Source: Planctomicrobium piriforme (GTDB taxonomy: Bacteria; Planctomycetota; Planctomycetia; Pirellulales; UBA1268). Taken from it: a stretch of 64,000 nt of DNA. The stretch lies in assembly GCA_945861585.1 (NCBI GenBank), contig CAMAVC010000006.1:1-64000 (forward strand), read 5' to 3'. This document shows positions 6,797 through 57,344 of the stretch, piece after piece. A model generated the notes under the pieces. The model was not told the origin of the DNA. It saw only the letters and a list, made by a program, of their open reading frames with translations, and did no database searches. The position numbers were made by a program, and so were the translations under genes. Position 1 is the stretch's first letter; every line of letters starts with the position of its first letter.

Positions 6797-6938
6797 GGCT
6801 TCGGGCTCCCCGTGTCCCGCTCGCCGGCGTATTTGACCAGCGGAGCCATGGATGGCGCAGCGCAGGCAAATCCGAGTGAGCCGCAGCCTGGAGGGCGGAG
6901 GCGAACGTCCGGCGACGGGATATGGGGAGCCCGAAGCC
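6797..6938 (+). repeat. R1 element copy A (142 bp, subtype I arms GGCTTCGGGCTCCCC/GGGGAGCCCGAAGCC)
   Basis: Perfect 15 bp inverted ends; two mismatches to copy B at 57203..57344. Confidence 0.9.
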
Positions 6939-6943
6939 GGCGG

Positions 6944-7615
6944 CTACGTGACCCGCGTGACGGTTGCGGGGTGGTCGTTGCGCACGAAGACGGCCCGCCA
7001 CACGGGGGCGCCGGCGAGGCGGGTGCGGCGCTCGAAGTGGGTGTGGTAGTCGAGGTCGTGCTCTGCCGTGCGGGGCTCGATCGGGGCCGGCTCCGAAAAC
7101 AGCCCGGTGGCCCGCGTGAAGTCGAGCGATTCGAGGAAGTATTCCTCGACGTCGGTCCACACGTGGAGTGCGCCGCCCGCCGGGAGCACGCGGCCTGCGT
7201 GCCGGAGGAACGTCTCCGAGAGCACGCGACGCTTGCGGTGCCGGGCCTTCCACCAGGGATCGGGAAAGTAGACGTGGATCGCCGCCAGGCAGGCGTCCGG
7301 AAGCAGGCCGCGCACGAGCCACGTGGCGTCGCCCTGGATCATGCGGGCGTTGGAAGCCGCGCGACGGGCGAGCCGTGCAGCACACAGGCGGGCATAGCCG
7401 ACCGCGAGTTCGGCACCGAGAAAGTTGTGGTCGGGGCGGGCTGCCGAGGCGGTGTCGAGAAACAGGCCCTTGCCGCTGCCGACTTCGAGTTCGATCGGGG
7501 CCGTGGTCGGAAAGAGTGAGGCCGGATCGAGCGGCACCGGCAGGTCGGCGAGCGCGACGAGGTGCGCCGAGAGGTCGAGGGCGGGATCGAGCTTCTTCGG
7601 GGGCCGGCGCGGCAT
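6944..7615 (-). CDS. trmB: tRNA (guanine-N7-)-methyltransferase
   Basis: IELEVGSGKGLFLDTA, IHVYFPDPWWKARHRKRRVL. Confidence 0.92.
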   Translation of the reverse strand: MPRRPPKKLDPALDLSAHLVALADLPVPLDPASLFPTTAPIELEVGSGKGLFLDTASAARPDHNFLGAELAVGYARLCAARLARRAASNARMIQGDATWLVRGLLPDACLAAIHVYFPDPWWKARHRKRRVLSETFLRHAGRVLPAGGALHVWTDVEEYFLESLDFTRATGLFSEPAPIEPRTAEHDLDYHTHFERRTRLAGAPVWRAVFVRNDHPATVTRVT

Positions 7616-8142
7616 CAGTGGGCCGGCGCCCCGCCGGACGATTCGAGGAGAAAGTCGATCGGCAGGGGCACGCCTTTGATCACGCCGTCGACCACGATGC
7701 TCTCACGAACGACGCCCTGGAAGCGGCACACGATCATCGCCTTTGGCCGCACCCGGACCCGCTCCACGGCGATCACGAGGCGATCACCGGGAACCACGGG
7801 CTCTCGAAACCGCACGTCTTCCATGCCGCCAAACCCGATCAGCTTGGCATCGAGCAGGTTGTGCTTCTGCGTGTAGTAACTCGAGAGCTGGGCCGCCGCC
7901 TCGCACATGAGCACGCCCGGCATCAAGGGCATCGCTGGGAAGTGCCCGCGCACCCAGAATTCCTCGCGGGTGACGTCTTTGTAGCCCACGCACAGGCCGC
8001 GGGCCTGGTCCTCGTGAACGATCGCCGTCAGTTGCTCCATCTCGAACCGCTGCTTGTTCCAGCGGCGGATCTCGTGGATGTCGGCGATGACGTGGTCGAG
8101 GTCGTATTCGCTCGGATGGATGATGTAGTCGCGCGGTGCCAC
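7615..8142 (-). CDS. fabZ: 3-hydroxyacyl-ACP dehydratase FabZ-family (hotdog fold)
   Basis: GHFPAMPLMPGVLMCEAAAQL motif, VVPGDRLVIAVE. Confidence 0.85.
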   Translation of the reverse strand: MAPRDYIIHPSEYDLDHVIADIHEIRRWNKQRFEMEQLTAIVHEDQARGLCVGYKDVTREEFWVRGHFPAMPLMPGVLMCEAAAQLSSYYTQKHNLLDAKLIGFGGMEDVRFREPVVPGDRLVIAVERVRVRPKAMIVCRFQGVVRESIVVDGVIKGVPLPIDFLLESSGGAPAH

Positions 8143-8169
8143 GGCCGTACTCCGTCGGACGAATCCGAA

Positions 8170-8268
8170 TCAGGTTCGGATGTGCTTGCGCTTGGCTTTC
8201 CGAGCCTTGCTGTTGGCGGGCCGGGCGCCGTGGTTGGCCTTCTTGAGGCGCCGATGAGGCTTTGCCAT
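8170..8268 (-). CDS. Small very basic protein, 32 aa (MAKPHRRLKKANHGARPANSKARKAKRKHIRT)
   Basis: Below the ORF-track cutoff. ATG preceded by CTGGAG at ~9 nt; lies directly upstream of fabZ on the same strand; K/R-rich composition resembling small ribosome-associated proteins. Confidence 0.55.
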   Translation of the reverse strand: MAKPHRRLKKANHGARPANSKARKAKRKHIRT

Positions 8269-8375
8269 GCGATGAAACTCCAGGCGATGCTGACTCCGCC
8301 CGGCCCATGCCGAGCGTTGGCGGAGTTGTACCACGCAGTCGTCGGGGCCGCCACGCCGCCCCCGTCAGGCACGGC

Positions 8376-8897
8376 TCAGGGGCGGTGATTCGCCGCTGCG
8401 GCCCGGCGTTCTGCGGCGATCGCTTCGCGGAGGCTCGTGCGCAGGATCTCCACGAAGCTGGCGCCGAGAAATCCGAATAGTCCGCCGATCACGGCCGACG
8501 AGATTCCGCCGATGACGGCGCCGGCCCACGAGCACGTCGTGAACGCCACGAGGGCCCACGTGCCGCACGCTCCGCCGCACACTCCGCCGATGGCCGCGGA
8601 GACGGGCACGAGGCGGCCAAGGCTGCCGGAGCGTTCGAGGTGTGTGGGCCGGGGGATCGGCACGGCGACTGCCGGCAGTCGGAAGCCGCGCCGACTGGAG
8701 AGATCGCGATCGGTCGCCTCGCGCATCTTCGTGCCGAGCGCGTTGCCAGCCACGTGGGCCGCCAGGCTCGCGAGCACCACGACGGCGGCCAGCCAGCCGG
8801 CGATCCCCAGCCACGTGATCGCCGCGCAGGCCACGGCCACGAGCACCACGAGCCAAGAGTAGGTGACCAGCCGCATGCGATGCCTTTCCCCCCTCAT
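8376..8897 (-). CDS. Hypothetical membrane protein (4 or more hydrophobic segments)
   Basis: 173 aa; hydrophobic stretches LVVLVAVACAAITWLGIAGWLAAVVVLASLA and GAVIGGISSAVIGGLFGFLGASF. Confidence 0.6.
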   Translation of the reverse strand: MRGERHRMRLVTYSWLVVLVAVACAAITWLGIAGWLAAVVVLASLAAHVAGNALGTKMREATDRDLSSRRGFRLPAVAVPIPRPTHLERSGSLGRLVPVSAAIGGVCGGACGTWALVAFTTCSWAGAVIGGISSAVIGGLFGFLGASFVEILRTSLREAIAAERRAAAANHRP

Positions 8898-8925
8898 CGT
8901 AGCAGCGTGGACGAACCCGGCTGCA

Positions 8926-9022
8926 GGAAACCCGAGGCGTGAGCCGAGAGGATGCCGCGCCGGCTCGGGTTACCCCGAGCCTCCTCCACCGGAAGCCCGA
9001 GGCGTGAGCCGAGAGGATGCCC
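8926..9022 (+). repeat. R2 half-units (two direct copies) flanking a collapsed R1
   Basis: ggaaacccgaggcgtgagccgagaggatgcc and ggaagcccgaggcgtgagccgagaggatgccc. Confidence 0.8.
8962..8981. repeat. Collapsed R1 palindrome (arms only)
   Basis: GGCTCGGGTTACCCCGAGCC, no interior. Confidence 0.7.
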
Positions 9023-9036
9023 CCGACCGGTTTCGG

Positions 9037-10545
9037 TCAGAAATCTCGGTCGACCGCTTCTTCGCGGTAGATCGGCAGCAGGCGGTAATAGACCTCGAGC
9101 GTGAGCACGGCGAGCGCCGTGTGGGCCAGACGGCCGCCAGGCGCCGTGTCGTGGTCGGCGAAGAACCAGCTGCCGGCCTCGTGGCCGAATCGCGCCTGCT
9201 GCGACACGAGCTGATCGCGGTGTTTGGCGTTCCAGCGGGGCCAGACGGGATGGTCGAGCTGGAGGAGCGCCTGCGCGAGGTAGAAATTCTGATAGATGTT
9301 CGTCGGGTGCGGGCCCGGCTTGGCCAGATTCGTGACGCCGCGCTGGAGCGCCTCGTGGCCGCTCCCCCAGCCGGTGTACATGCGGCACAAGAGGCCGACC
9401 GCCGACGTGCAGGGCTTGGCGGCCGGCGTCCGGTAGCCGTAGGCCGCGCCGCCCTGGGTCTGCACCCGGTCGAGGAACCGCTTGGCGGCCTCGATCGTGG
9501 GCGAAGGCACCTCGACACCCGCGAGCATCGCGCTCTTGAGGGCCGCGATCTGCCACGCCGTGACGGTGATGTCGCCCGCCTGCCCCGGCAGATACCGCCA
9601 GCCGCCGCCGTGCAGATCCTGCGCCGTCTCGGTGAACCGCACCGCATCGCGGACGTAGGGCAGGAGCATTTCGTCGCCCGTCATCCCGAGCGCTTCGGCC
9701 AGCACGAGCGTGGTGACGCCATGGCCGTACATCGTGCCCTCGCAGAAGTCGCCGCCCCGCGGCGTGGGCTGCATGCGGCTGACGAGATAGTAGATGCCGC
9801 GCGACACCGTCTGCTGATAGGGGCCGTCGGCGTGCGTGCTCCCCGCGCCGAGAAACGGCAGGAGCGCGATCGCCGTGCTCGCCGTCGAGCCGGTGAGCGT
9901 GCCCGGATCGCGGCACGCGCCGTCGCAGCGGCAGCCGGAAAGGTCGAACTGCCACGAGCCATCGACGGCCTGATGGGCCGCGAGCCAGGCGAGGCCGGCC
10001 TCAACGGCCGCTTCGCTCGCCTGCGAGCCGCCGCGGGCACGCGCGGCCGTGCCCCGGGCGGCGCCGCGCCGCGGCGCGAAGGCCGCGGTGCCGCTCGCGA
10101 GCGTGCCAGCAGCCTTGGCTGCGGCACCGCCCACGCGCACCGACACGGCCCGGGCCGGCAGACCGGTGGGATCGAGGCGGATCGGCGGGGCATCCGCGTC
10201 GGCGGCAGGCGTTGCGATTGGGTCGTGCACGGTCACGAGCGGCACGTCGTCGACGGGGAGTTCTTGAGACTCGAGAGTCGGGGCGGCCGCGGCAGCCTGC
10301 GCGTCGTCGTGCGGCAGGTCGTCGCCGAGTGCGACATCGACGAAGTGGTCGTCGCCGGCCGCCTCGGCTTCGCCAAACCGCAGCTGGATCGGCTGGGGCG
10401 GCGGCATGCGCCGCGTCTCGAGCGCCAGGATCGCGAGGATGATGCACACCACGACGTGGGCGACGAGGCTCAGATAGCCCGCCCGCACGGCGGGGCTCGC
10501 CACCGCGCGTTCGATCCACGGGGTATCAGGGCTCTCGCTCGGCAT
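9037..10545 (-). CDS. Squalene cyclase/prenyltransferase-like alpha/alpha-toroid repeat protein with N-terminal TM
   Basis: 502 aa; repeat motifs WLAAHQAVDGSWQFD, GGGWRYLPGQAGD, TSAVGLLCRMYTGW; paralog of 11142..12785. Confidence 0.75.
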   Translation of the reverse strand: MPSESPDTPWIERAVASPAVRAGYLSLVAHVVVCIILAILALETRRMPPPQPIQLRFGEAEAAGDDHFVDVALGDDLPHDDAQAAAAAPTLESQELPVDDVPLVTVHDPIATPAADADAPPIRLDPTGLPARAVSVRVGGAAAKAAGTLASGTAAFAPRRGAARGTAARARGGSQASEAAVEAGLAWLAAHQAVDGSWQFDLSGCRCDGACRDPGTLTGSTASTAIALLPFLGAGSTHADGPYQQTVSRGIYYLVSRMQPTPRGGDFCEGTMYGHGVTTLVLAEALGMTGDEMLLPYVRDAVRFTETAQDLHGGGWRYLPGQAGDITVTAWQIAALKSAMLAGVEVPSPTIEAAKRFLDRVQTQGGAAYGYRTPAAKPCTSAVGLLCRMYTGWGSGHEALQRGVTNLAKPGPHPTNIYQNFYLAQALLQLDHPVWPRWNAKHRDQLVSQQARFGHEAGSWFFADHDTAPGGRLAHTALAVLTLEVYYRLLPIYREEAVDRDF

Positions 10546-10906
10546 GGCCTTGCCTGTCGGGGCGACTTTTCCGTCGGGGCAAATCGTACGCTCGGGAAAG
10601 ACTGCGCTCCCCGCGCAGACGGCGATCCCTGTGACCGATCCCCGGGAGTCATCGACCAGCCCGTAGGACAGGCTTCAGCCTGTCATGCCTCAACTCGCCC
10701 AACCCGGCGCGGGGTTACCCCGTACCGTCTCGCCTGTCCTGCCTTGCTCAGCCGATTCGCATCCGGTAACCACCCGCATTCGGAGCCAAGGGAGGCATGC
10801 TCGAGGGATGCTTCACGGCACGGCACGGCATCGTGCCGTCCGTTCCTTGGCCGACCTCCGTCGGCTGGTGATGACCCGGCCGTCCGGGCCTGGCGTCAGA
10901 GGGTCC

Positions 10907-10962
10907 TCAACGACTCCCTTCGTCTGCGCGTGCCCACCGACCGACTCCGCCGAACGTTCTCA
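10907..10962 (+). repeat. R4 unit next to R1 copy C
   Basis: gggtcctcaacgactcccttcgtctgcgcgtgcccaccgaccgactccgccgaa. Confidence 0.85.
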
Positions 10963-10980
10963 GCGCCTACGAGTTGGGGA

Positions 10981-11122
10981 GGCGAGGGGTTACCCCTGCC
11001 GTTGAGCCGGCGTATGTGACCAGCGAAGCCATGGATGGCGCAGCGCAGGCAAATCCGAGTGAGTGGAGGCCTGGAGGGCCGCAGCGAACGTCCGGCGAGA
11101 CGGTACGGGGTAAACCCGAGCC
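10981..11122 (+). repeat. R1 copy C (142 bp, subtype II arms)
   Basis: ggcgaggggttacccctgccgtt...acggtacggggtaaacccgagcc; interior matches A/B (accagcgaagccatggatggcgcagcgcaggcaaatccgagtgag). Confidence 0.85.
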
Positions 11123-11141
11123 GGCGCGTGGCCAACCGAAC

Positions 11142-12785
11142 CTATTCTTTGAACTCTTCGTCTACGCTCTGCTGGCCGTAGATCGGGAGATGGCGGTAGT
11201 AGACCTCGAGGATCATCGTGGCCATCGACGTGGTGTAGAGGCGACCGCCCTGCTCCGGGCCATGGCCTTTGTCGAATTCCTCGAACCAGCTGCCGGCTGC
11301 GTGGCCCTTGGTCTGTTGCGACTTCACGAGCATGTCGCGCATCTTCGTGTTCCATGCCACCCACACGTCGCCCTCCATGTGATGGAGGATCTGCGTCGCA
11401 TAGTAGTTGTAGTAGAGATCTTTGCTCGGGCCATTCTTGGCGAGCCGCAGGACGCCGCGTTGCAGGGCTGGGTTGTCCTTCTTCCAGCCGAGATACATCC
11501 GGCAGAGGAGCCCGACAGCCGACGTGCCGTAGGCACTACCGGGATCGGTGTAGCCGTACATCGAGCCCTCGTCCTGTTGCACACGATTGAGGAAATCGAC
11601 GGCCTTCTTGATCGTGAGCGGGTTCACCTGGAGAAACGCCATGTGGCCGCTCTTGAGTGCCATGAGCTGCCAGCCGACGGCCGATGTGTCGCCCGGCTGC
11701 TTCGGTGCATACCGCCAGCCACCGCCCACCGGGTCTTGCGCCGCCATGATGTAATTGAGGGCGAGTTGGGCCGGGCCCTGGAGCCGTTTGTCTTGCGTCA
11801 TCGCGTAGGTTTCGGAAAGCGCGATACCGGCCAGGCCCTGGGCGTAGAGGTTGCCCCCCTTCTCGTATGCCTTGCCCTGACCCTTCACGGCCATCGCGGC
11901 GAGGAAGCCGATTCCGGCCTCGAACTGTTTCTTATAGGGCCCCTCTTTGTGCGTGTAGCCGCGGCCGAGCATCGGCAGGAGCGCCATTGCCGTAGCCCCT
12001 CCGCGGTCTTGGATCTTGCCGGGGTGGGAGCAGTTGCCGTTGCAACTCGGGCACTTCGTGAAGTCGAAGCTCCAACTGCCATCCGGCATCTGGTGGTTGA
12101 TGATCCATTTGATGGCCGCCTCGACCGCGGCCTCGCTCTGGGCACTGCCGCCGCCCGCCTGCACGAGCTTGTTGCGCATCGTGGGATCGGTGCGTCCGCC
12201 GAGGCCGCCGGCCTGGCCACCGATCGCGCCCACGCTCGCGAGCAGGTCGGACGAGGCGGCCGTCTCGGTGCTGAAGTCGGTGAACTCGACCGACACGGCC
12301 GCGGCGTCGATATCGGCCGCGTCGCTCACCACCTGCACGTCTTCCACGACCGCGGCATCGGGCAGCACGACCTCGTTGCTCACTTCTTGCGTCTGTGGCT
12401 GGTCGAGGGGCGTCTCCTCCTCGAACTCTTCGAACTCCTCGACCACTTCCGGGGCCGACGAGACGATGACCCGCGGGGTCTCTTTCGGCGGCGGCTCTTG
12501 TACGATGAGGGCCATCGAGAGGAGCACGACGATGTGCAAGAGCATGCTCACGGCCCATGCCGGCGCAGTGCGCAGGATGCCGCCGCCCGAGCGATGTGGC
12601 GGATCGTCGGCAGCGTGGGCCTGAGCGGCAGCCGCCTGGGCCGCCGCAGCGGGCGCGGCCGGTGGTTTCGGCGGGGCGGCTGGTTTGGCGGCGGTGGCGG
12701 CCGGTGTGGGAGCGGCTGGCTTGGGAGGCGAGCCGGCCGGAGCCTGTGGCTTCTTGCCTGCGCCTGGCTGGATTTGGCTGGCCAT
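11142..12785 (-). CDS. Squalene cyclase/prenyltransferase-like alpha/alpha-toroid repeat protein with Ala/Pro-rich N-terminus and TM
   Basis: 547 aa; WIINHQMPDGSWSFDFTKCPSCNGNC, GGGWRYAPKQPGDTSAVGWQLMALKS. Confidence 0.75.
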   Translation of the reverse strand: MASQIQPGAGKKPQAPAGSPPKPAAPTPAATAAKPAAPPKPPAAPAAAAQAAAAQAHAADDPPHRSGGGILRTAPAWAVSMLLHIVVLLSMALIVQEPPPKETPRVIVSSAPEVVEEFEEFEEETPLDQPQTQEVSNEVVLPDAAVVEDVQVVSDAADIDAAAVSVEFTDFSTETAASSDLLASVGAIGGQAGGLGGRTDPTMRNKLVQAGGGSAQSEAAVEAAIKWIINHQMPDGSWSFDFTKCPSCNGNCSHPGKIQDRGGATAMALLPMLGRGYTHKEGPYKKQFEAGIGFLAAMAVKGQGKAYEKGGNLYAQGLAGIALSETYAMTQDKRLQGPAQLALNYIMAAQDPVGGGWRYAPKQPGDTSAVGWQLMALKSGHMAFLQVNPLTIKKAVDFLNRVQQDEGSMYGYTDPGSAYGTSAVGLLCRMYLGWKKDNPALQRGVLRLAKNGPSKDLYYNYYATQILHHMEGDVWVAWNTKMRDMLVKSQQTKGHAAGSWFEEFDKGHGPEQGGRLYTTSMATMILEVYYRHLPIYGQQSVDEEFKE

Positions 12786-13127: not shown

Positions 13128-13130
13128 CCC

Positions 13131-24479: not shown

Positions 24480-26096
24480 ATGGAATCGGCAACGACCGCA
24501 GGAGGGCTGTCTCCCGTGATGCAGCGCACAGCCCTCTTTCTGCTTGGCGGGTTCGGCATGCTCCTGCTCGGCGCGGCGGTGCAGCCGCGGTTCCAGGGCC
24601 GCGTGGAGAAGCCGGCCGAGGAGCGGGTGCTGTTTCCCGAGCTCTCCGATGCGTCGAAGGCGGCGAGCCTCGAGATCATCAAATACGACGAGGAGTTGGC
24701 CACGCTCGCGCCCTTCAAGGTGGTGCAGTCGGGCGGGGTGTGGGTGCTGCCCTCGCATCAGAACTACCCGGCCGACGCCAAGGATCACCTGGCCGCAGCG
24801 GCCACGGAGCTCGTGGACCTGAAATCGCTCGACGTGGTGAGCACGTCGCCGGCCGACCACGAGACGTTCGGCGTCATCGAGCCCGATCCGGAAAAGATCA
24901 AGCCGGGCATGACGGGCATCGGCGAGCTCGTGGAGGTGCGCGATGCGGCGGGCACGAAGATCGCGCGGCTCGTCGTCGGCAAGGAGGACAAGCGGCCCGC
25001 GATGGGCGATGCGGGGGCCGGTAAGAAGCTGCGATTCGTGCGCAAGGCGGGGCAGGATCCGGTGTACCGGATCGAGATCGACACTTCGAAGTTCACGACC
25101 CGGTTCGACGACTGGATCGAGAAGGATCTGCTCAAGCTCTCGCCCTGGGACGTGCGGCGGCTCGTGCTCGACGACTACACGCTCGGGGCGGTCGAGTCGG
25201 GCGGCCGGATCATGGTGGAGCAAAACCGCAAGGACCGGATCGAACTCACCTACGACGACAAGGACGCGAAGTGGGCGCTCGCGAAGCTCGAGGCGTTCGC
25301 CGGCGGCAAGACGGCCAAGGAAGAGAAACTGGCCGACGGGCAGGAACTTGCGAGCACCAAGCTCAACGACCTGCGCAACGCCCTCGGCGACCTCAAGATC
25401 ATCGACGTCGCGCGGAAGCCGGCCGGCCTGAGCGCCGACCTCAAGGGGGCGGAGGCGTTCACGGGCGATCCCGAGGCGGTGACGTCGATGCAGCAGCGCG
25501 GCTTCCTGCCACTCAAGTCGGGCGACATCCTCTCGACCGACGGCGAGACGATCGTGGGGATGAAGGACGGCGTGGAATACGTGCTCCGGTTCGGAGCCGG
25601 CACGACGGTGTCGGGCGCCGACAAGAAAGAGGCCGACGCCGCAGAGCCCGCCGCCGACGCCGGTGAAACGGCCGGCCGCTACCTGCTCGTGATGGCGCGG
25701 TTCAACGAAGGCCTGCTCGACAAGCCGAAGCTCGATCCGGTGCCGGACGCTCCGGACGAGCCCAAGGCCGACGAGAAGAAGGCAGATGACAAGAAGGACG
25801 AGAAGAAGCCTGAGGGCGATGCCGCCGAGAAGCTCAAAGCCGCTGAGGAGGCCGATGCGAAGGCCCAGGCGGCGCTCGAAGAGAAGCGGCGCGTGGAGAG
25901 GGAAAACCGCCGCAAGCAGGACGAATACGACGACAAGGTGAAGGCGGCCCAGAAGCGGGTGCGCGACCTCAACAACCGCTTCGCCGACTGGTATTACATC
26001 GTGTCGGACAAGGAATACGCCAAAATCCACCTCACCCGCGACGGCGTGATCCAAAAGAAGGCCGAGGAGCCGAAGGAACCCGCACCTCCGAAGTGA
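24480..26096 (+). CDS. DUF4340-domain protein, TM-anchored
   Basis: Follows the GldFG-like gene; hydrophobic N-terminus LFLLGGFGMLLLGAAV; charged C-terminus. Start could also be 24444. Confidence 0.7.
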   Translation: MESATTAGGLSPVMQRTALFLLGGFGMLLLGAAVQPRFQGRVEKPAEERVLFPELSDASKAASLEIIKYDEELATLAPFKVVQSGGVWVLPSHQNYPADAKDHLAAAATELVDLKSLDVVSTSPADHETFGVIEPDPEKIKPGMTGIGELVEVRDAAGTKIARLVVGKEDKRPAMGDAGAGKKLRFVRKAGQDPVYRIEIDTSKFTTRFDDWIEKDLLKLSPWDVRRLVLDDYTLGAVESGGRIMVEQNRKDRIELTYDDKDAKWALAKLEAFAGGKTAKEEKLADGQELASTKLNDLRNALGDLKIIDVARKPAGLSADLKGAEAFTGDPEAVTSMQQRGFLPLKSGDILSTDGETIVGMKDGVEYVLRFGAGTTVSGADKKEADAAEPAADAGETAGRYLLVMARFNEGLLDKPKLDPVPDAPDEPKADEKKADDKKDEKKPEGDAAEKLKAAEEADAKAQAALEEKRRVERENRRKQDEYDDKVKAAQKRVRDLNNRFADWYYIVSDKEYAKIHLTRDGVIQKKAEEPKEPAPPK

Positions 26097-26146
26097 TTCG
26101 GCTACGTAGGACAGGCTTCAGCCTGTTACCTCGGCGCGCCCAAGCC

Positions 26147-26287
26147 GGCTCGGGGCTACCCACGCCCCCTCGCCGGACGTTCGCTCCGGGCATCCCTGCC
26201 CTCCGCTCACTCGGAGGTGCCTGCGCTCTCGCCCTCCGGGCTCCGCTGGCCACCTACGCCGTCTCGAGGGCATGGATAGCCCCTCGC
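26147..26287 (-). repeat. R1 copy H (diverged, inverted)
   Basis: ggctcggggctaccc...ctcgccggacgttcg...ctccgctggccacctacgccgtc...agcccctcgcc. Confidence 0.7.
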
Positions 26288-26408
26288 CTTCCCTTGAACA
26301 GGGAGGCGAGGGGGTCGGCGAACGCTCGAGGAGCATTGGGCCGCCGCGGCCCACGCGACGAGACTTTTGCCGCCCCCGAGCCGGCAACACACCTGTCTCG
26401 GATGCGCC

Positions 26409-27071
26409 CTACAGCGCCAGCGCCCGGATGTCGCGAAACTCGACCTTCATCACGAGTCCGGCGTGGATCTGCAGGCCGATCGGCGCGGGATCGGCATACT
26501 TCGGATCCTTGTACTGCGACACCTGCTCGCCGTTGAGCCAGACGGTGAACGTGTCGCCCTTCGCCTCGACGCGGATCCGGTTCCACTCGCCGGGCTTGAG
26601 CAACTCGGCAGCCTTCGGCGCCCGGGCCTCCTCGGGATATGTGCCGGTGTAGAACGAACAGGTCATGTCGCGCTTCAGGCTCCGCGACACGCCGATCTGC
26701 ACCTGCAGTTCGGGCTTCCGCACCATGATGCCGCTGTCGATCTCGCCGGTAAACCGCACCTCCGCCTCCACGATCACGTCGCCGTACGGCTGTTCCGTGA
26801 AGAGCATCGAGCCCTGCTTGCGGTCGTCGCTCTGGCCGACGATCGCGCCGTCGACGACGCTCCCGTAGGCGGGCTCGTTCGGCGCCTGCCAGCCGGAGAG
26901 ATCCTGGCCGTTGAAGATCGAGGGCAGGGATGCCGTGGGAGGCGTCTCGGCCCCCGCGGATGCGACGTTGAGCAACATCGTGAGAAAGGCGATTGCAGGA
27001 AACTGGAGGAGAGCCAGTGATGAATGAGGAACTCGAGTCATGGGTGTTCTCACTGAGGCAATGAAATCCAC
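26409..27071 (-). CDS. DUF1080 (3-keto-disaccharide hydrolase-like) secreted protein, copy 1
   Basis: SIFNGQDLSGWQAPNEPAYGSVVDGAIVGQ...FTGEIDSGIMVRKPELQVQIGVSRS. Mature domain nearly identical to 37050..37658. Confidence 0.85.
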   Translation of the reverse strand: MDFIASVRTPMTRVPHSSLALLQFPAIAFLTMLLNVASAGAETPPTASLPSIFNGQDLSGWQAPNEPAYGSVVDGAIVGQSDDRKQGSMLFTEQPYGDVIVEAEVRFTGEIDSGIMVRKPELQVQIGVSRSLKRDMTCSFYTGTYPEEARAPKAAELLKPGEWNRIRVEAKGDTFTVWLNGEQVSQYKDPKYADPAPIGLQIHAGLVMKVEFRDIRALAL

Positions 27072-36562: not shown

Positions 36563-36652
36563 CCAAGCTTCGCCCTGCGGCTACCGCGATTTCCCGCGGG
36601 TGTTCAAGCCGGCTGTGAAAGATCCAGCGGCGTCCGACGTCTCCTTGAGCAG

Positions 36653-36841
36653 TGCCGCTTCTTGCCGCTCAAGTCGGGCGACATCCTCTCGACCGACGGC
36701 GAGACGATCGTGGGGATGAAGGACGGTGTGGAATACGTACTCCGGTTCGGAGCCGGCACAACGGTGTCGGGTGCTGACAAGAAAGAGGCCGACGACGCGA
36801 AGAAGGCAGATGACAAGAAGGACGAGAGGCAACCGGAGGGC
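36653..36841 (+). pseudogene. Remnant of the DUF4340 gene (corresponds to ~25498..25816, internal ~130 bp missing)
   Basis: Near-identical stretch cgcttcttgccgctcaagtcgggcgacatcctctcgaccgacggcgagacgatcgtggggatgaaggacgg...aagaaagaggccgac, then rejoining at gcagatgacaagaaggacgag. Confidence 0.88.
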
Positions 36842-36920: not shown

Positions 36921-37044
36921 GGGCATCCTCTCGGCTCACGCCTCGGGCTTGCTTGGACCGGGCATCCTCTCGGCTCACGCCTCGGGCTTGCTTGGATCGG
37001 GCATTTCGTCAGGAAGCCCGAGGCGTGAGCCGAAGGGAATTCGG
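36921..37044. repeat. R2 units (two direct plus one inverted)
   Basis: gggcatcctctcggctcacgcctcgggcttgcttgga twice, then ggaagcccgaggcgtgagccgaagggaat. Confidence 0.85.
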
Positions 37045-37049
37045 GTCCG

Positions 37050-37658
37050 CTACAACGACCGCGCCCGGATGTCGCGAAACTCGACCTTCATCACGAGTCC
37101 GGCGTGGATCTGCAGGCCGATCGGCGCGGGGGCCGCGTACTTCGCGTCCTTGTATTGCGACACCTGCTCGCCGTTGAGCCAGACGGTGAACGTGTCGCCC
37201 TTCGCCTCGACGCGGATCCGGTTCCACTCGCCGGCCTTGAGCAACTCGGCAGCCTTCGGCGCCCGGGCCTCCTCGGGATATGTGCCGGTGTAGAACGAAC
37301 AGGTCATGTCGCGCTTCAGGCTCCGTGACACGCCGATCTGCACCTGCAGTTCGGGCTTCCGCACCATGATGCCGCTGTCGACCTCGCCGGTGAACCGCAC
37401 CTCCGCCTCCACGATCACGTCGCCGTACGGCTGTTCCGTGAAGAGCATCGAGCCCTGCTTGCGGTCGTCGCTCTGGCCGACGATCGCGCCGTCGACGACG
37501 CTCCAGTAGGCGGGCTCGTTCGGCGCCTGCCAGCCGGAGAGATCCTGGCCGTTGAAGATCGAGGGCAGGGATGCCGTGGGAGGCGTCTCGGCACGGCCGA
37601 TGGCGGCCAGTGCGATCACGGCGACGCACACGAGCAGGACAGGACGGACGCAGTGCAT
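37050..37658 (-). CDS. DUF1080 (3-keto-disaccharide hydrolase-like) secreted protein, copy 2
   Basis: MHCVRPVLLVCVAVIALAAIGRAE signal peptide, then a domain differing at only about 7 positions from copy 1. Confidence 0.88.
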   Translation of the reverse strand: MHCVRPVLLVCVAVIALAAIGRAETPPTASLPSIFNGQDLSGWQAPNEPAYWSVVDGAIVGQSDDRKQGSMLFTEQPYGDVIVEAEVRFTGEVDSGIMVRKPELQVQIGVSRSLKRDMTCSFYTGTYPEEARAPKAAELLKAGEWNRIRVEAKGDTFTVWLNGEQVSQYKDAKYAAPAPIGLQIHAGLVMKVEFRDIRARSL

Positions 37659-38820: not shown

Positions 38821-38947
38821 TGCCGTGCGACGGTCCTGCGCCGGTCATAGACCATGCTTCAGCCGGCCATGCGTTCGTCAACTCGCCAAAGCCGGCTCGG
38901 GGTTACCCCGTACCGTCTCGCCGGACGTTCGGGGCGTTGGGCGCGCC

Positions 38948-39089
38948 GGCTCGGGCCTACCCCGTACCGTCTCGCCGGACGTTCGCCTCCGCCCTCCAGG
39001 CTTCGGCTCACTCGGATGTGCCTGCGCTGCGCCATCCATGGCTCCGCTGGTCACATACGCCGTCTCAACGGTAGGGGCAGCCCCTCGCC
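38948..39089 (-). repeat. R1 copy F (142 bp, inverted), preceded by a partial extra arm at ~38892-38930
   Basis: ggctcgggcctaccccgtaccgtctcgccggacgttcgcc...catccatggctccgctggtcacatacgccgtctcaacggtagggg. Confidence 0.85.
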
Positions 39090-39116
39090 TCCCCAACTCG
39101 GAGGCGCCGAGGACTT

Positions 39117-39252
39117 TCGGCGGAGTCGGTCGGTGGGCACGCGCAGACGCAGGGAGTCGTTGAGGACTATCGGCAACTGATCAAAACCCACGAGTTATGT
39201 ACTCTCAACACGACCGGAGTCGAGCATGCCTACCGCCGGCTCCGAATGCGGG
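39117..39252 (-). repeat. R4-R5 module (inverted) next to R1 copy F
   Basis: ggcggagtcggtcggtgggcacgcgcagacgcagggagtcgttgaggac...aaaacccacgagttatgtactctcaacacgaccggagtcgagcatgcctaccgccggctccgaatgcggg. Confidence 0.85.
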
Positions 39253-41096: not shown

Positions 41097-41119
41097 TTTT
41101 GCAGCGGACGTGTGCCTCG

Positions 41120-41201
41120 GGAAGCCCGAGGCGCAAGCCGAGCGGATGCCCCGGTTGCGAACCTCCGCGCGTATTCCCTTCGGCTCACGCCTCGGGCTTC
41201 C
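41120..41201 (+). repeat. R2 element, 82 bp inverted-repeat pair
   Basis: ggaagcccgaggcgcaagccga...tcggctcacgcctcgggcttcc. Confidence 0.85.
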
Positions 41202-41212
41202 TGCGTTGAGGA

Positions 41213-41372
41213 GGCTTCGGGGTTACCCCTACCATTGAGACGGCGTATGTGACCAGCGCAGGCAGGATGCCCAAGCGGAGGCGCTCCCGCCGGCGCAGGC
41301 ACATCCGAGCGAGCGGAGGCCAGGATGGCCGCAGTGAGCGTCCGGCGAGATGGTACGGGGTAACCCTGAGCC
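41213..41372 (+). repeat. R1 copy D (160 bp, subtype II)
   Basis: ggcttcggggttacccctaccattgag...gagatggtacggggtaaccctgagcc. Confidence 0.88.
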
Positions 41373-41427
41373 GGTGCCGCTCATTTGATGCCGGCGTGCT
41401 ACAACAGGCGGCTTCAAGGAGAATCCC

Positions 41428-42774: not shown

Positions 42775-42836
42775 TGTTGTCCGGCTCAGGGCAGCCCCGT
42801 ACCGTCTCGCCGGACGATCGGGTCGATCGGCACGCC

Positions 42837-43142
42837 GGCTTCGGGCTCCCCATATCCCGTCGCCGGACGTTCGCCTCCGCCCTCCAGGCTCCGGCTCACT
42901 CGGATTTGCCTGCGCTGCGCCTGGCGGCTTTCGCGCCGTCGCCGCCGTCCCGGCGTCGGCGCCGGCTTACGGTCGCCGAGCAAAGCTCGGCTCCCCACGC
43001 GAACGTCAGGGCCGGAGGCCCACTTTTGCACCAGCGGGCGGAGGCCCGCCAAGCGAACAGCGGCACGATGCCGGGTGTTCGCGTGAAGATGGCTCCGCTG
43101 GTCAGCTACGCCGGCTCCTGGGACACGGGGAGCCCGAAGCCT
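42837..43142 (-). repeat. R1 copy G (subtype I, inverted) interrupted by ~164 bp of other hairpin-rich sequence
   Basis: Arms ggcttcgggctcccc (42837) and ggggagcccgaagcc (43128) with both half-interiors present but separated. Confidence 0.8.
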
Positions 43143-43150
43143 CCTCAACG

Positions 43151-43231
43151 AAAGCCTGAGGCGCAAGCCGAAGGGAAAACGCGTGGAAGTGCGCAGCCGG
43201 GGCATCCTCTCGGCTCACGCCTCGGGCTTCC
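43151..43231 (-). repeat. R2 element, ~81 bp
   Basis: gaaagcctgaggcgcaagccgaaggg...ggcatcctctcggctcacgcctcgggcttcc. Confidence 0.8.
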
Positions 43232-43240
43232 AGACGGGGA

Positions 43241-43261
43241 GGCTCGGGGTTACCCCGAGCC
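43241..43261. repeat. Collapsed R1 palindrome (arms only)
   Basis: GGCTCGGGGTTACCCCGAGCC: 10 bp arms with a 1 nt centre. Confidence 0.75.
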
Positions 43262-43309
43262 GGATTGGGCGTAAAAACGTGACAGGCTGAAGCCTGTCCC
43301 ACGCGCTGC

Positions 43310-50057: not shown

Positions 50058-50069
50058 CGTTCGGAATCA

Positions 50070-50151
50070 GGAAGCCCGAGGCGTGAGCCGAGAGGATGCC
50101 CCGGTGCCAAAACGCTACGCGTATTCCCTTCGGCTCACGCCTCGGGCTTCC
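50070..50151 (+). repeat. R2 element, 82 bp with perfect 22 bp inverted arms
   Basis: ggaagcccgaggcgtgagccga...tcggctcacgcctcgggcttcc. Confidence 0.9.
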
Positions 50152-50164
50152 AGACAGACAGGGA

Positions 50165-50305
50165 GGCTCGGGGTTACCCCTGCCGTTGAGACGGCGTATG
50201 TGACCAGCGCAGGCAGGAAGCCGGAGCGCAGACACATCCGAGCGAGCGGAGGCCAGGATGGCCGCAGTGAGCGTCCGGCGAGACGGTACGGGGTAACCCC
50301 GAGCC
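50165..50305 (+). repeat. R1 copy E (141 bp, subtype II, perfect 16 bp arms)
   Basis: ggctcggggttacccc ... ggggtaaccccgagcc. Confidence 0.9.
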
Positions 50306-50343
50306 GGTGCAGCTGAGTTGACTGCAGACAGGCGGGACGCCCG

Positions 50344-51579: not shown

Positions 51580-51729
51580 GGTGCGGGCTCCATGAGGCAG
51601 GGTGTGGACGGATCCGGCGATCTTACTCTGAACGCGAAAAAAGCCGTCCAGGGGCGTGTGCCACGTGGCCGGCGGTCGGCCGCAGCGGGTACGATGTGAG
51701 GCCACCGCCTCGCGATCGAGAGTCCGACG

Positions 51730-54699
51730 ATGCCCACCCCCACTCCCCAGCAGTTTTGGACGCTCGTCGCCGAGACGGGGCTCGTCGATCGCGACCGTCT
51801 CGAAGCGCTGCAGGCGGAGTTCGAGATGGAGTCGCTCTCGCCGGCGGCGACCCCCGACGCCCTCACCGAGGCGATCGCCAAGTGGCTCGTGCGCCGCAAG
51901 GTGATCACGGTTTGGCAGGCGCGGCGGCTGGTGCGCGGTGACCGCGGGCCGTTCTTCATCGGTGACTACCGGCTGCTCGAGCGGCTCGAGAAAGACTCGT
52001 ATCAGGGAAGCGGCAAGGGGTATTTGTTTCGGGCCCGGCACGAGCCGTCGGGCCGCTCCGTCCTGCTGATGCTGCTCGATGCCGAACGGTGCCGCGACCT
52101 CGAGGTGTGGACCGCCATCGTGCGCCGCACGACGGCGGCGAACCGGGCGACCGATCCCGTCCTCGCCCGCACCTGGGCGCTCGAGCAGAGCGGCGGCCAG
52201 CGGTTCATCGTGTGCGAAGACGTGGGCGGCACTCCGCTCACGCCGGAGCTGGCGGCCCGCGGCCCACGGCCGATCGCGGAGGTGGGGCCGCTGATGGTCG
52301 CCATCGCGCGCGGCGTCGCCGAACTCCACCGTCTCGGCGTGGTGCATGGCGGCATCTCGCTCGAAGCCCTGCGGCGTCAGGCGCCGGCCGCTGGCGCAGA
52401 GCTGGCAACGGGCCGCATCCGACTGCTGCAGTTTCCCCTCGTCGCCGATCCGCATGTCGCAGCTCCGCGGCCCATGATCGACAGACCGGAGTCGATCGCG
52501 CTGTTGGGAACACGGGCCGCTTTTCTCGCGCCCGAGCTCCTGCTGCCGGGCGCCGCGTGTGATCCCCGGAGCGACGTGTATGCGCTCGGCTGCGTGATGC
52601 AGGCGTTGCTCACCGGCACGTTGCCGTGCTGGCAGGGAAGCCCGGAGCAGACGCTGTCGCAGGCCGCATTCGTCGGGCCCGAGCCGCTCACGCCGCCGCA
52701 GGTGCCGCTCGAGATCGCGACGCTGGTCTCGTATCTCGTCGCACGTGATCCTGCCGCCCGCTATCAATCCGGGGCCGAAGCAGCCGATGCGATCGCGGCG
52801 TGTCTTGGCCTGCCCCCGGTGTCGCCGTCGCTCCCCCCGCAGCAGCCGTTGATCGACCAGGTGGTTGCGGCGGCTCCAGCGCCGCCGGTCGTCGCCCAGG
52901 CAGCAGCCGTCACCGTCTCCGAACGCAGTGAGCGACCGTCGTTCATCACGCCCGTCGATCCACCGCGGGCGGCCGCCCGCCCCACGACCCCGTGGGCGAC
53001 GTATGCGCTGGGGCTCGCGGCCCTGGCGGCAATCAGCGGTGGGGCGGTCGCAGTCTTGACCAGGCCAAGTTCCGAGCGACCGCAGCCTGAAGCGGCGAGT
53101 TCCGAGAAGGTCGCACCAGCGGCCAATGCGGCGGTCGCGACGACGGCGACCGGGCGGCCCGCCCCGGAGGCATCCGAGCCCACGGCTGTTCAGCCGGAGG
53201 CGACCGCGGGAAAGGCCCCGCTTTCCGACCGCGAGACGACGACGCTCGTCGACGCCGCGGACGTGCCGTGGGCGGCCCCCACGGACGGCGCACCCCCGAC
53301 GCTCGCCTACCTGCCGCCCGGATCACAACTCGTGTTGCTCGCCCGGCCCGCCGACCTGCTCGCGGGCGACGAGGGGCGGCTCTTCGTGCGGGCGCTCGGA
53401 AGCCGCGTGGAGCGTGCGCTCGCGATGGTCGCCGCCGCATGCGGCTGCTCCGTCGACGAGGTCGAGTTCGTGCAGGCGGGATGGCAGGCCGATCCGGAGG
53501 CCGGGCCCGACGCCGTGGTGGGGGGCTATGCGGCCTGGGGCCGCGACCCGCTGCCCGTGGCGGCCGACGACGATGCCCGTGAGAAGGCCTGGGGCCGGAC
53601 GACGGCACGCGATATCGACGGAGAGACGGTGCACGCCGGAGCAGGGGTTTCGTATTGGCTGCCTGACGACGGCCGCGTGCTCGTGGCGGCGCCGGAGAAT
53701 CTCCTCACAGAGATGGTGCGATCCCGCAGGGCCGACGGCGATCGGCGAGCCGCACAGGACTGGCGCGAGAGGCTCGAAGCGACGCTCCCACCCGATCTCG
53801 AAGACCTTGTCGGCATGCTCGACGAGACCCGTCATCTCACGCTCTTTGGCTCGCCGACCTACCTCCTCCACGACGGCCGGCCGGTGTTCGCCGGTCCGCT
53901 GGCGAAGCTCATCGAGCCCCTCGGCGCGATCCTGGGGAGTGAAACGGCTGCAGCGGCGCTGTCGCTGCACTGTGCCGACACCTTCTACGCCGAGATCGAC
54001 GCGATCGGAGCGACGGCGCGCTCTGCCAGGAAAGAAGCCGTGGATCTCGGCGAACGGATCGCGGCGCTGGCGGATGCGATCGAGGAATATTGCAACACGC
54101 TCGATCCGCATCCGTATGGCCGGAAGCTGGTGATGCGTCTCCCGCGGATGCTGGGCATTCTCGCCGCCAACCTTCGGACGGGATCCAGTGGCAAGGCGAT
54201 CGTCGTCAATTGCCATCTTCCCCGGCATGCAGGCCACAATCTCGCGCTCGCCGCCGAGCTCGCGATCGAGCAGACGCCGGGCGCGGGGGCCACCATCGCC
54301 GCCGTGGCGACGCCGGCGGCCGGCCAGTCGGCGGCCGACCGGCTGGCGAAGCGAATCTCGCTGACGTTCGCCCGCGACACGCTCGAAAAGTCAATCCAGA
54401 TGCTCGCCGAGGAGGTCGGCGTGCCGATCGAGATTCTGGGCAAGGATCTCGAGCTCGAGGGCATCACGAAGAACCAGTCGTTCGGGCTCGACGAGAGCGA
54501 CCAGCCCGCCGAGGCGATCCTCCGTACGATCCTTGCCAAGAGCAATCCGGACGGCAAACTGGTTTACGTATTCCGCAAGAATGACGCCGGCGAGTCGATC
54601 GACGTCACCACGCGGGCGGCCGCCACGAAGCGGGGCGACGAGGTGCCGGCGGTGTTTGCCGACCGGGCAGTGAAGCAAGAGGAATCAAAGTCACCATGA
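51730..54699 (+). CDS. Protein-kinase-fold (probable pseudokinase) membrane protein with a large C-terminal region ending in an STN-like segment
   Basis: Kinase C-lobe landmarks ([39 protein letters not shown]), [25 protein letters not shown]-terminal [37 protein letters not shown]. Confidence 0.75.
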
Positions 54700-55712
54700 T
54701 CATCGTCATGCACGCCGGTGCGGTCGCCGGGGATCTCGATCGAGTCGTGAGCCGGGTCGAGGCGCTGAAACTTCGGCCGCACGTGATCGTGGGCACGGAG
54801 CGGACGGTGGTCGCCGTCGTCGGTGACGAGCGCGACGCCACGGGCGCCGGCTTCGAGACGCTGCCCGGCGTGGCCTCGGTGCTGCCGATTCTCGCGCCCT
54901 ACAAGGTGGCCAGCCGCGAAGTGCAGGCGGAGACCACGCTCGTGAAGGCCGGCCCGCTCGAAGTGGGCGGGAGCCGGATCGGCGTGATCGCCGGGCCCTG
55001 CTCAGTGGAGAGCGTCGAGCAGATCGTGGGCACGGCCCGGGCCGTGAAGGCCGCGGGCGCCACGGGCTTGCGTGGCGGGGCGTTCAAGCCGCGGACGAGC
55101 CCCTACAGTTTCCAGGGAATGAAGGAGAAGGGGCTCGAACTGCTCGCCGAGGCCCGGCAGGCGACGGGCCTCGCGGTGGTGACGGAAGTGGTCGCCCCCG
55201 AAGACGTGCCGCTCGTCGCCCGCTATGCCGACGTGCTCCAGATCGGGGCCCGCAACATGCAGAACTACCGGCTGCTCGAGGCGGTTGGCCGCACGCAGAC
55301 GCCCGTGCTGCTCAAGCGGGGGCCGGCGGCGACCGTCGAGGAACTGCTCTTGGCCGCCGAATACATTCTCGATGCCGGCAATTTGCAGGTGATGCTCTGC
55401 GAGCGCGGGATCCGCACGTTCGAGACGCACACCCGCTTCACGCTGCCGCTGGCGACGGTGCCCTGGCTCCATGCCCGCACGCACCTGCCCGTGGTCGTCG
55501 ATCCGAGCCATGGCACGGGCCATGCGAACCTCGTCGAAAGCATGGCCGCCGCGAGCGTCGCTGCGGGCGCCGACGGCCTGATCATCGAAGTGCACCCCGA
55601 TCCCAAGTGCGCGTCGAGTGACGGCGCCCAGACGCTCGACTTCGCCGCCTTCGGCCGGATGATGGACGTCTGCCGCCGCGTGGCCGTGGCGGTCGGCCGT
55701 TCACTCGGCTGA
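54696..55712 (+). CDS. aroF: 3-deoxy-7-phosphoheptulonate synthase
   Basis: [63 protein letters not shown]; starts in an ATGA overlap. Confidence 0.93.
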
Positions 55713-55734
55713 GCCCTCAGTGCGGAAGCATCGC

Positions 55735-56883
55735 ATGGCCTTCTCCGCGCTGCCGCTGGCGTATTGCACGAACGTGCATCCGTGCCGTGTCGTCACCGAC
55801 GTGCCCGCGGTGCTCGATCGCTACGCAGCCCCGGTGAGGGCGATTTCGGGCTTCGAGATCTCCGTGGGGCTCTGGCTCCCCGAGGCTGCCGTCGACGAGG
55901 CAGGTGCCGCCGACGTCGTGGGCCACGCGCTCGCGAGCCACGGGCTTTCCTGCCACACGCTCAACGCGTTTCCCTTCGGCGAGTTTCACGGCGCCCGCGT
56001 GAAGGAGCAGGTGTATCTGCCCGACTGGGCTGATCGCCGCCGGCTCGATTACACGCTCTCCTGTGCCCGCCTGCTCGCCGCGATCGTGCCGCCGGGCGGC
56101 GAAGGCAGCATCTCGACGCTGCCGCTGGGGTTCAAAGGCTTCGACCACAGGCCCGAGTTCATGGCGGCGTGTGCCGATCACCTGCTCACGTGCGCTCGCG
56201 AGTTCGCCGCACTCGAAGCCGCCACTGGCCGCACGATCCGGCTGGCCCTCGAGCCCGAGCCCTGCTGCATTCTGGAGACGACGGCCGAGACGGTCGCCTT
56301 CTTCACCGCGCTCTTCGAGCGGGCGGCCCGTGCCGGCATCGAACAGGAAGCCCGTCGCCACCTCGGCGTGTGCTACGACGTGTGCCATCAGGCGGTGGAA
56401 TTCGAGGACGCAGCGACGGCCGTCGCCGCGCTCACGGCAGCCGGCGTCCGGATCAACAAGGTGCAGATCAGCTGCGCGATCGAGGCGACCGACCCGACCG
56501 ACACGGCTCAGCGCGATGCGCTGCTCGCCTACGTCGAGCCCCGCTACCTGCACCAGACGTTCGCCCGCGGCGCGGATGGCACGCTGCACCACGCCGTCGA
56601 CCTCACCGCCGACCTGATCGCCGATCCCGCGTGGCACGCCCGCGGCCCGTGGCGGATCCACTACCACGTGCCGGTCGACGCCGAGCGGATCGGGCCCCTG
56701 CGCACGACGCGTAGCGAACTCGTGCGCGCCCTCGCCGCGATCAAAACCCTCGACTACGCTCCACACCTCGAAGTCGAAACGTACACCTGGCCCGTGCTCC
56801 CGGGCGCCGATCCGGTCGATCTCGCCGCCGGCATCGCCCGCGAACTGATCGCGACCCGCGTGCTGATCGGAAACACCGCCTAA
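55735..56883 (+). CDS. EboE-like metabolite traffic protein / sugar phosphate isomerase-epimerase (TIM barrel)
   Basis: LAYCTNVHPCRV N-terminus; LALEPEPCCILET; GVCYDVCHQAVEFED. Confidence 0.6.
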   Translation: MAFSALPLAYCTNVHPCRVVTDVPAVLDRYAAPVRAISGFEISVGLWLPEAAVDEAGAADVVGHALASHGLSCHTLNAFPFGEFHGARVKEQVYLPDWADRRRLDYTLSCARLLAAIVPPGGEGSISTLPLGFKGFDHRPEFMAACADHLLTCAREFAALEAATGRTIRLALEPEPCCILETTAETVAFFTALFERAARAGIEQEARRHLGVCYDVCHQAVEFEDAATAVAALTAAGVRINKVQISCAIEATDPTDTAQRDALLAYVEPRYLHQTFARGADGTLHHAVDLTADLIADPAWHARGPWRIHYHVPVDAERIGPLRTTRSELVRALAAIKTLDYAPHLEVETYTWPVLPGADPVDLAAGIARELIATRVLIGNTA

Positions 56884-57046
56884 CCGATCGCCGGTCGAAC
56901 TCGCCCAATCCGGCTCGGGCTTACCCCGTACCGTCTCGCCGGACGCTTACCGCGGCCATCCCCATCTCGCCTCTCCGTCTGGGAGAGGCCGGCCGCAGGC
57001 CGGGTGAAGGTGCTTGGAAGCAGCATTGGGAGCAGCCTCAGGGCAT

Positions 57047-57087
57047 CCTCACCCCGGCCCTCTCCCCGAGGGAGAGGGAGAGAGGGC
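57047..57087. repeat. REP-like hairpin ctcaccccggccctctccccgagggagaggg
   Basis: CCCTCTCCCC/GAGGGAGAGGG stem; resembles a REP-type sequence seen in many unrelated bacteria (hypothetical translation PHPGPLPEGEG). Confidence 0.7.
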
Positions 57088-57111
57088 AACCCCTCGCCTC
57101 CCTGTCTGTCT

Positions 57112-57193
57112 GGAAGCCCGAGGCGTGAGCCGAAGGGAATACGCGTCGTGTTTCGCCACCGGGGCATCCTCTCGGCTTACGCCTCGGGCTTCC
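57112..57193 (-). repeat. R2 element, 82 bp, core inverted relative to the other R2-R1 composites
   Basis: ggaagcccgaggcgtgagccgaagggaatacgcg...ccggggcatcctctcggcttacgcctcgggcttcc. Confidence 0.88.
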
Positions 57194-57202
57194 GCTTGAG
57201 GA

Positions 57203-57344
57203 GGCTTCGGGCTCCCCGGGTCCCGCTCGCCGGCGTATTTGACCAGCGGAGCCATGGATGGCGCAGCGCAGGCAAATCCGAGTGAGCCGGAGCCTGGAGG
57301 GCGGAGGCGAACGTCCGGCGACGGGATATGGGGAGCCCGAAGCC
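57203..57344 (+). repeat. R1 copy B (142 bp, subtype I)
   Basis: 140/142 identical to copy A by direct reading. Confidence 0.92.

Follow-up and report, generated by a model that had tools for sequence, protein, structure and literature searches.

R1, a dispersed 142-bp repeat with a conserved three-way-junction fold in one family of Planctomycetota

Relation of R1 to described bacterial repeats

REP doublets forming hairpins (REPINs) and bacterial interspersed mosaic elements (BIMEs) are inverted doublets of repetitive extragenic palindromic (REP) sequences that are thought to be moved by REP-associated tyrosine transposases (RAYTs) (Bertels and Rainey 2011, PMC3116915). In the GTAG type, a GTAG tetranucleotide ends the repeat beside a short hairpin, and the gene of a linked RAYT has the repeat on its flanks. 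Another group of REPs, CGTC-1 to CGTC-4, is characterized by a CGTC tag, a stem of 8-9 bp that begins with A-T pairs, a loop of 4-5 nt and a CCA-like tail (PMC3733652). Here we describe an intergenic repeat of ~142 bp, R1, that is present in the first 64,000 nucleotides of contig CAMAVC010000006.1 of the Planctomicrobium piriforme assembly GCA_945861585.1 (hereafter the window, on contig C6 of a genome of 3.67 Mb in 157 contigs). R1 is probably a small non-autonomous mobile element, of the BIME or miniature inverted-repeat transposable element (MITE) kind, that is specific to one family of Planctomycetota.

Like REPINs and BIMEs, R1 consists of two inverted end modules around a spacer that fold as one strand with compensatory changes, occurs in hundreds of extragenic copies accompanied by solitary end modules that resemble remnants, lacks a target duplication and is rare between divergent genes (PMC3116915). 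As in the REP/BIME/REPIN class, the dispersing unit is an inverted doublet with a single-stranded fold. However, R1 is about twice as long as a REPIN, and its centre is not a variable spacer but a fixed two-armed core conserved in sequence and fold. In contrast to GTAG-type REPs and REPINs, it has neither a GTAG tag nor a linked RAYT and its units pair into divergent dimers; GTAG-REPs (GTAGGACAGGCTTCAGCCTGTC) exist in the window separately from R1. The 3' half of R1 resembles the CGTC-tagged REPs in that it begins with CGTC, is ~35 nt long and palindromic, and is found also solitary (Di Nocera et al. 2013, PMC3733652). Both lack a known dedicated transposase and lie between convergent and co-directional genes (PMC3733652). 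Unlike in CGTC-1 to CGTC-4, the R1 stem reads CGTC-CGGC without the initial A-T pairs and is longer, the loop differs, and the module is part of a 142-nt unit. With the ERIC, Correia and RPE MITEs, R1 shares a length in the 100-200 bp range, a non-coding sequence, an intergenic location, ends that close a stem, and a copy number that varies widely between related genomes (PMC2229807, PMC10969869), but it is GC-rich, has no TA ends or target duplication, and differs from them by its three-way junction, covarying inner arms and strand-specific G-U pairs. R1 is REPIN- or ERIC-like in its working, yet lacks the tested defining traits of GTAG-REPs, CGTC-REPs and MITEs (target duplication). Descriptions of small repeats usually present simple palindromes, whereas the fold of R1 has two arms and non-Watson-Crick pairs, forms on one strand and is conserved across genera of the family. 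This fold provides a clear testable substrate for a mobilising or binding protein, and R1, with no Rfam match and found only in one planctomycete family, gives a handle on what moves RAYT-less REP-like elements.

Fold of R1 and the strand that folds

BLAST recovered R1 at all eight places of the window where the preliminary description had located it (Table 1), with two corrections: the repeat at 42837 is a single copy split by another repeat, and the one at 41213 is ~160 bp long. The near-identity noted for the copies at 6797 and 57203 was confirmed (140/142 positions, 98.6% identity over 142 bp), as was the constancy in length, which is 141-143 nt in 53 of the 55 copies measured in the source genome and 160 nt in the other two. 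The copy at 26147 belongs to a divergent subfamily (76% identity). R1 begins with GGCTTCGGG.. and ends with ..CCCGAAGCC, its terminal inverted repeats span 31 bp with 90% identity, and RNA folding gave z-scores of -5.9 to -7.4 relative to dinucleotide shuffles. Additional half-copies are found at five places in the window (Table 1), and 3'-half modules beginning with CGAACGTC occur also solitary or in tandem.

The fold was analyzed in an alignment of 63 non-redundant sequences from 13 genomes. A terminal stem of ~25 bp, P1, closes a three-way junction with two arms, P2 (hairpin 1) and P3 (hairpin 2). Subtypes of P1 differ yet compensate (GGCTTCGGGCTCCCC..GGGGAGCCCGAAGCC versus GGCTCGGGGTTACCCC..GGGGTAACCCCGAGCC), and P2 pairs as ATTTG/CAAAT in some copies, as ATGTG/CACAT in others and as ATCTG/CAGAT in another. 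When compared with a tree-based null that re-places substitutions on the tree (the tree being approximate because R1 copies recombine), every one of the eight top-scoring column pairs was complementary and nested with the others. For three pairs the null gave no exceedance in any of its 20 replicates; the remaining pairs had an expected number of 0.15-0.30. In alignment A2, 31 of 47 pairs had changed on both sides, 93.3% of cells were paired compared with 28-41% when the partners were slid, and the covariation score was 0.345 versus 0.141 in shuffles (0 of 500 reached the observed value). An independent set of 62 public sequences, each sharing less than 90% identity with every training row and aligned without the model, gave 90.0% paired cells versus 33-38% with slid partners; 27 of the 47 pairs showed two Watson-Crick types differing on both sides and the G-A pairs were conserved. 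Because the retrieval pattern for this set prescribed some bases of hairpin 2 and of the 3' strand, the support counts as independent only in the 5' strand, P2 and hairpin 1. By the tree-based null, the shuffles and the public sequences, covariation in R1, which the preliminary description had left to be checked, is strong and structure-specific. Both arms hold the same 3x3 loop, 5'-GNA/GNA-3' (first arm, G48.A65 in 63/63 and A50.G63 in 62/63 sequences; second arm, G88.A106 in 44/63, or C-G, and A90.G104 in 56/63). P3 contains in addition tandem G-A pairs (61/63 and 63/63), and GGA is present in the end loops of both hairpins in 60 of the 63 sequences. R1 keeps its shape although its sequence varies, a pattern that suggests a hitherto undescribed family of small mobile elements with an RNA-like fold.

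Hairpins with GGA-containing loops are a feature that R1 has in common with CsrB-type small RNAs. The TwoAYGGAY motif is also a structured RNA with GGA-loop hairpins. CsrB repeats read CAGGA(U/A/C)G and lie in hairpin loops (PMC7652899), and the same sequence occurs in 31 of the 63 R1 sequences, versus 3.9 expected by shuffling and 0 on the other strand. Judged from these motifs, and with five CsrA matches in the source genome, R1 might be transcribed and bind CsrA via its two hairpins as a dispersed CsrB-like decoy. We consider this highly improbable: families and genera that lack R1 have csrA just as well, so the gene does not discriminate; stability alone could be the reason for keeping a GNA-type loop; and the R1 hairpins, being stable, GC-rich and small-looped, differ from most ligands obtained by systematic evolution of ligands by exponential enrichment (PMC7652899). 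Moreover, and in contrast to CsrB-type small RNAs, R1 shows no sign of a dedicated gene and is dispersed in hundreds of copies.

The helices of R1 contain 115 G-U compared with 18 A-C combinations in the alignment, and 117 compared with 34 in the public set. This indicates that one strand of R1 is the folded one, and the plus strand outfolds the minus strand in 44 of 45 sequences. We infer that what is kept folded is a single strand of defined sense, either RNA or single-stranded DNA, since a double-stranded DNA cruciform would not give this asymmetry. The suggestion that R1 is a structured RNA finds support in the strand-specific fold only.

Distribution, putative mobility and gene context

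A covariance model was built from 45 sequences and the three-way-junction structure. In the window, it detected seven full-length R1 copies, with scores of 111-151 bits and E values from 1e-23 to 1e-32, as well as part of a copy at 42860-42944, and in the source genome at least 150 full-length copies. Because five of the seven full-length window copies stand among the 150 genome matches listed, the true number in the source genome is probably a little above 200. By blastn with one R1 copy, ~40 strong full or contig-end copies were found in this genome, several of them cut by contig ends. Numerous contigs of the source genome (G000) end in or near R1 (C5, C10, C14, C42, C90, C100, C143, C144 and others), which means that R1 limits the assembly and that copy counts from this metagenome-assembled genome (MAG) are minima. 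R1 helps to explain assembly breaks in the genomes of its family because contigs often end inside it.

The same model found R1 in 22 of 25 genomes of the family including the source (21 of the 24 others), with counts from 2 to at least 150, but not in the family genomes G006, G007 and G019, so that copy number between related genomes ranges from 0 to at least 150. It was absent from 15 of 15 genomes of other families in the order and, in a sample searched with stricter filters, from 293 further genomes of the phylum. R1 being confined to the window, the outcome that would have spoken against the preliminary description, is refuted by these genome-wide and family-wide matches. An exact-pattern scan of public genomes gave matches in MAGs labelled Planctomycetota, Planctomycetia, Planctomycetaceae and 'Candidatus Kuenenia' and in one labelled 'bacterium', and several isolate names among them indicate lakes. 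Several R1-bearing public MAGs are titled 'Candidatus Kuenenia stuttgartiensis', a label that looks mistaken. No known RNA family matches R1: Rfam gave 0 matches over the window at gathering score; a search of one R1 copy with E up to 10 returned four unrelated weak matches, the best of which was a CRISPR repeat (E 0.54).

The boundaries of the dispersing unit were read from pairs of similar copies in the source genome. Homology ends 0-9 bp past the R1 3' end in 332 of 393 pairs. On the 5' side it mostly ends at 0-9 bp as well, apart from another cluster at 150-172 bp, corresponding to the partner R1 of a dimer, and a smaller one at 75-95 bp, where a REP pair lies. All 20 pairs of R1 neighbours less than 400 bp apart are divergent, with the two 5' ends turned towards each other (at a distance of 14-24 bp in 12 pairs), and 11 of 13 neighbour pairs in public loci are divergent. 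The unit is therefore a 142-nt monomer or a divergent dimer of ~310 bp; dimers such as 56910-57344 have other repeats nested inside. In 20 dimers and 51 single copies, direct repeats flanking R1 were as frequent as in shuffled flanks, so no target-site duplication was detected. This bears on whether R1 is an ordinary MITE derived from an insertion sequence with a DDE transposase, with terminal inverted repeats of ~25 bp, old enough to have lost its target duplications. Its length, terminal inverted repeats, intergenic site and copy number fit MITEs (PMC10969869, PMC2229807), but we find such an origin improbable. Target duplications are missing from dimers and singles although many copies are 97-99% identical to each other, covariation and G-U excess extend to the inner arms, where a double-stranded inverted-repeat substrate would not need them, and R1 is not AT-rich (GC ~0.7). 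Besides, no insertion sequence carrying R1 ends was seen in the retrieved loci; the assembly often breaks at R1.

Comparison with sister species showed that several R1 sites are not shared. Sites 6797 and 41213 each lack R1 in three sister species, the latter with a core-less hairpin retained in G001, and sites 38948 and 50165 are empty in G003 and occupied in others, sometimes as a dimer of other subtypes. Two other regions of 20 kb hold four more R1-bearing gaps, each of them short in one or more relatives, and copies facing short R1-free gaps in sister species include C10:34678, C10:39921/40191 and C26:7216. A core-less R1, in which one hairpin is formed from both ends, stands at 43239-43263 and also in L058, the orthologue of 41213; it probably arises by recombination between GGGGTTACCCC and GGGGTAACCCC.

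Genes were predicted with a simple caller of our own, trained on codon-position GC (GC3), which replaced an earlier one that chose wrong strands in this GC-rich genome; the window genes it predicts agree with conserved blocks. In line with the preliminary description, five of the eight window copies lie between convergent genes, the other three between co-directional ones, and all of them downstream of at least one stop codon. The 58 R1-bearing gaps comprise 26 convergent, 31 co-directional and 1 divergent gaps, compared with 36, 229 and 56, respectively, among 321 other gaps, and thus R1 gaps are enriched in convergent (Fisher 1.3e-8) and depleted of divergent ones (Fisher 1e-3). In co-directional gaps R1 stands a median of 66 bp past the stop codon, and single copies are in sense to the upstream gene in 7 cases and in antisense in 14. 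The absence of a sense-strand preference argues against a role in the sense-strand 3' untranslated region (UTR) and fits insertion tolerated beyond stop codons. The idea that R1 is a terminator, raised in the preliminary description, finds no support: a sense bias is missing, and the aligned copies showed no T-run at their ends. A broader possibility is that R1 is a cis-acting 3'-UTR RNA (a module for transcript stability, processing or termination), with a fold maintained because each copy serves the neighbouring gene and with copies spread by recombination. A strand-specific RNA-like fold with conserved non-Watson-Crick pairs, the position just past stop codons and the retention of R1 at some orthologous sites would suit it, and ERIC and Correia elements, once inserted, have effects on transcripts (PMC2229807, PMC10969869). 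We nevertheless hold it to be rather unlikely: besides the missing sense bias, every dimer has one R1 in each orientation, the sites are often empty in sister species, and the close genera represented by G006, G007 and G019 have no R1.

Altogether, the unit-length homology blocks, divergent dimers, empty sister sites and variable copy number agree with the non-autonomous mobile or REP/BIME-like element proposed in the preliminary description. Several observations weigh against R1 being a mobile element. No clean single-element insertion site was found: relatives have short gaps opposite whole repeat blocks, with boundaries that cannot be read to the base, and since whole blocks are present or absent, loss or block transfer is also possible. 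Sites 38948, 50165 and 57203 hold R1 in several species, which a host function would also predict. Y1_Tnp was not found in the R1-rich genomes G002-G005 of the same genus, and at C106 the repeat on the flanks of the RAYT-like gene is not R1. The source genome has two Y1_Tnp genes, the one at C106 being flanked by the AAGCCCGAGGC repeat and the one at C9 by none of the repeats searched. A RAYT as mobiliser of R1 was rejected, because a Y1_Tnp search of 40 genomes showed no association and a RAYT-like open reading frame (ORF) in L045 is flanked by another repeat. An attC-like recombination site was dropped as well, as R1 copies are dispersed singly or as divergent dimers and not in cassette arrays.

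If R1 is mobile, its folded single strand, perhaps as single-stranded DNA at replication forks and less likely as a transcript, would be recognised, copied or moved by a trans-acting enzyme. Recognition of the folded strand would account for a fold that is maintained across hundreds of copies although their positions are not conserved, and such a route might also explain the lack of target duplication, by analogy with what has been proposed for HUH/Y1 transposition of REPINs. Insertions would be tolerated mainly past stop codons, so that copies pile up between convergent genes. It is doubtful, although worth stating, that R1 is the first known representative of a class of bacterial mobile elements that disperse by means of an RNA-like three-way-junction fold in which a G-A-rich tertiary motif is duplicated. 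A host or element protein would then recognise this fold, and the element might be RNA-based (reverse-transcribed or CsrA-binding) and not based on single-stranded DNA.

Coordinates and adjoining repeats

Table 1. R1 copies, their parts and adjoining REP-like repeats in the window (CM, covariance model; MFE, minimum free energy; D and I numbers, repeats)
Feature	Position	Strand	Evidence
R1 copy 1 (type A)	6797..6938	+	CM 150.7 bits at 6795-6940; MFE fold a three-way junction, z -7.4
Copy 1, P1	6797-6819 with 6916-6938; 6825-6828 with 6907-6911	+	
Copy 1, P2 and hairpin 1	6831-6837 with 6865-6871; hairpin 1 6845-6856	+	
Copy 1, P3 and hairpin 2	6876-6906; hairpin 2 6885-6897	+	
Solitary R1 3' half (CGGCGAGACGGTACGGGG...), additional half-copy	10704..10734	-	repeats D5, I25
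R1 copy 2 (type B ends)	10981..11123	+	CM 137.6 bits at 10979-11124
R1 copy 3 (divergent subfamily)	26147..26288	-	CM 121.8 bits at 26145-26290
R1 copy 4; additional 3' half-copy after it at 38892-38930	38948..39089	-	CM 129.1 bits at 38946-39091; repeats D5/I20
REP-like inverted pair (AAGCCCGAGGCG..), family separate from R1, adjoins R1	41117..41201		repeats D4/D6/D7
R1 copy 5, ~160 bp, extra bases in hairpin-1 arm	41213..41372	+	CM 111.1 bits at 41211-41374
Solitary R1 3' half, additional half-copy	42781..42812	-	repeat D5
R1 copy 6, split by nested other-family repeat	42837..43141; halves 42837-42921, 43089-43141	-	partial CM matches 42860-42944, 42982-43143
REP-like pairs, same family as 41117-41201	43147-43231, 50067-50151, 57109-57193		repeats D4/D6/D7
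Core-less R1, left end fused straight to right end (GGCTCGGGGTTACCCCGAGCC), additional half-copy	43239..43263	+	sequence; CM 16.8 bits
R1 copy 7 (type B)	50165..50306	+	CM 140.1 bits at 50163-50307
R1 partner of copy 8, core replaced by other palindromic repeat	56910..57100	-	direct reading; additional half-copy 56910-56961 in I18/I21
R1 copy 8 (type A), same as copy 1 at 140/142 positions	57203..57344	+	CM 144.5 bits at 57201-57346

Several other repeats accompany R1 in the window. A REP-like repeat (AAGCCCGAGGCGTGAGCCGA) forms inverted pairs beside or between R1 copies and is present also at 8922-9026 and 36921-37047; the pair at 57109-57193 lies within the divergent dimer formed by R1 copy 8 and its partner. 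The same repeat flanks the RAYT-like Y1 transposase ORF L045:1264-1842 (repeat region at about 1137-2083 of L045), and the two together are a probable REPtron. The GTAG-tagged REP often stands shortly past the R1 3' end (10663-10684, 43281-43298 and 57370-57387). The repeat nested in copy 6 (GGGAGCCGGGCTTTGCCCGGCGACCGTAAGCCGG..., 42922-43088) has relatives in L022 and L034. Three R1 copies are directly adjoined at their 5' end by a repeat of ~160 bp (..GCGCGTGCCCACCGACCGACTCCGCCGAA..), located at 6634-6796, 39090-39252 (inverted) and, partly, 10903-10980; composites of this repeat with R1 are found again in the genome. Finally, stretches with 93-96% identity lie ~11 kb apart (26409-26708 with 37050-37349, and 25492-25642 with 36648-36798), which suggests a partial gene duplication.

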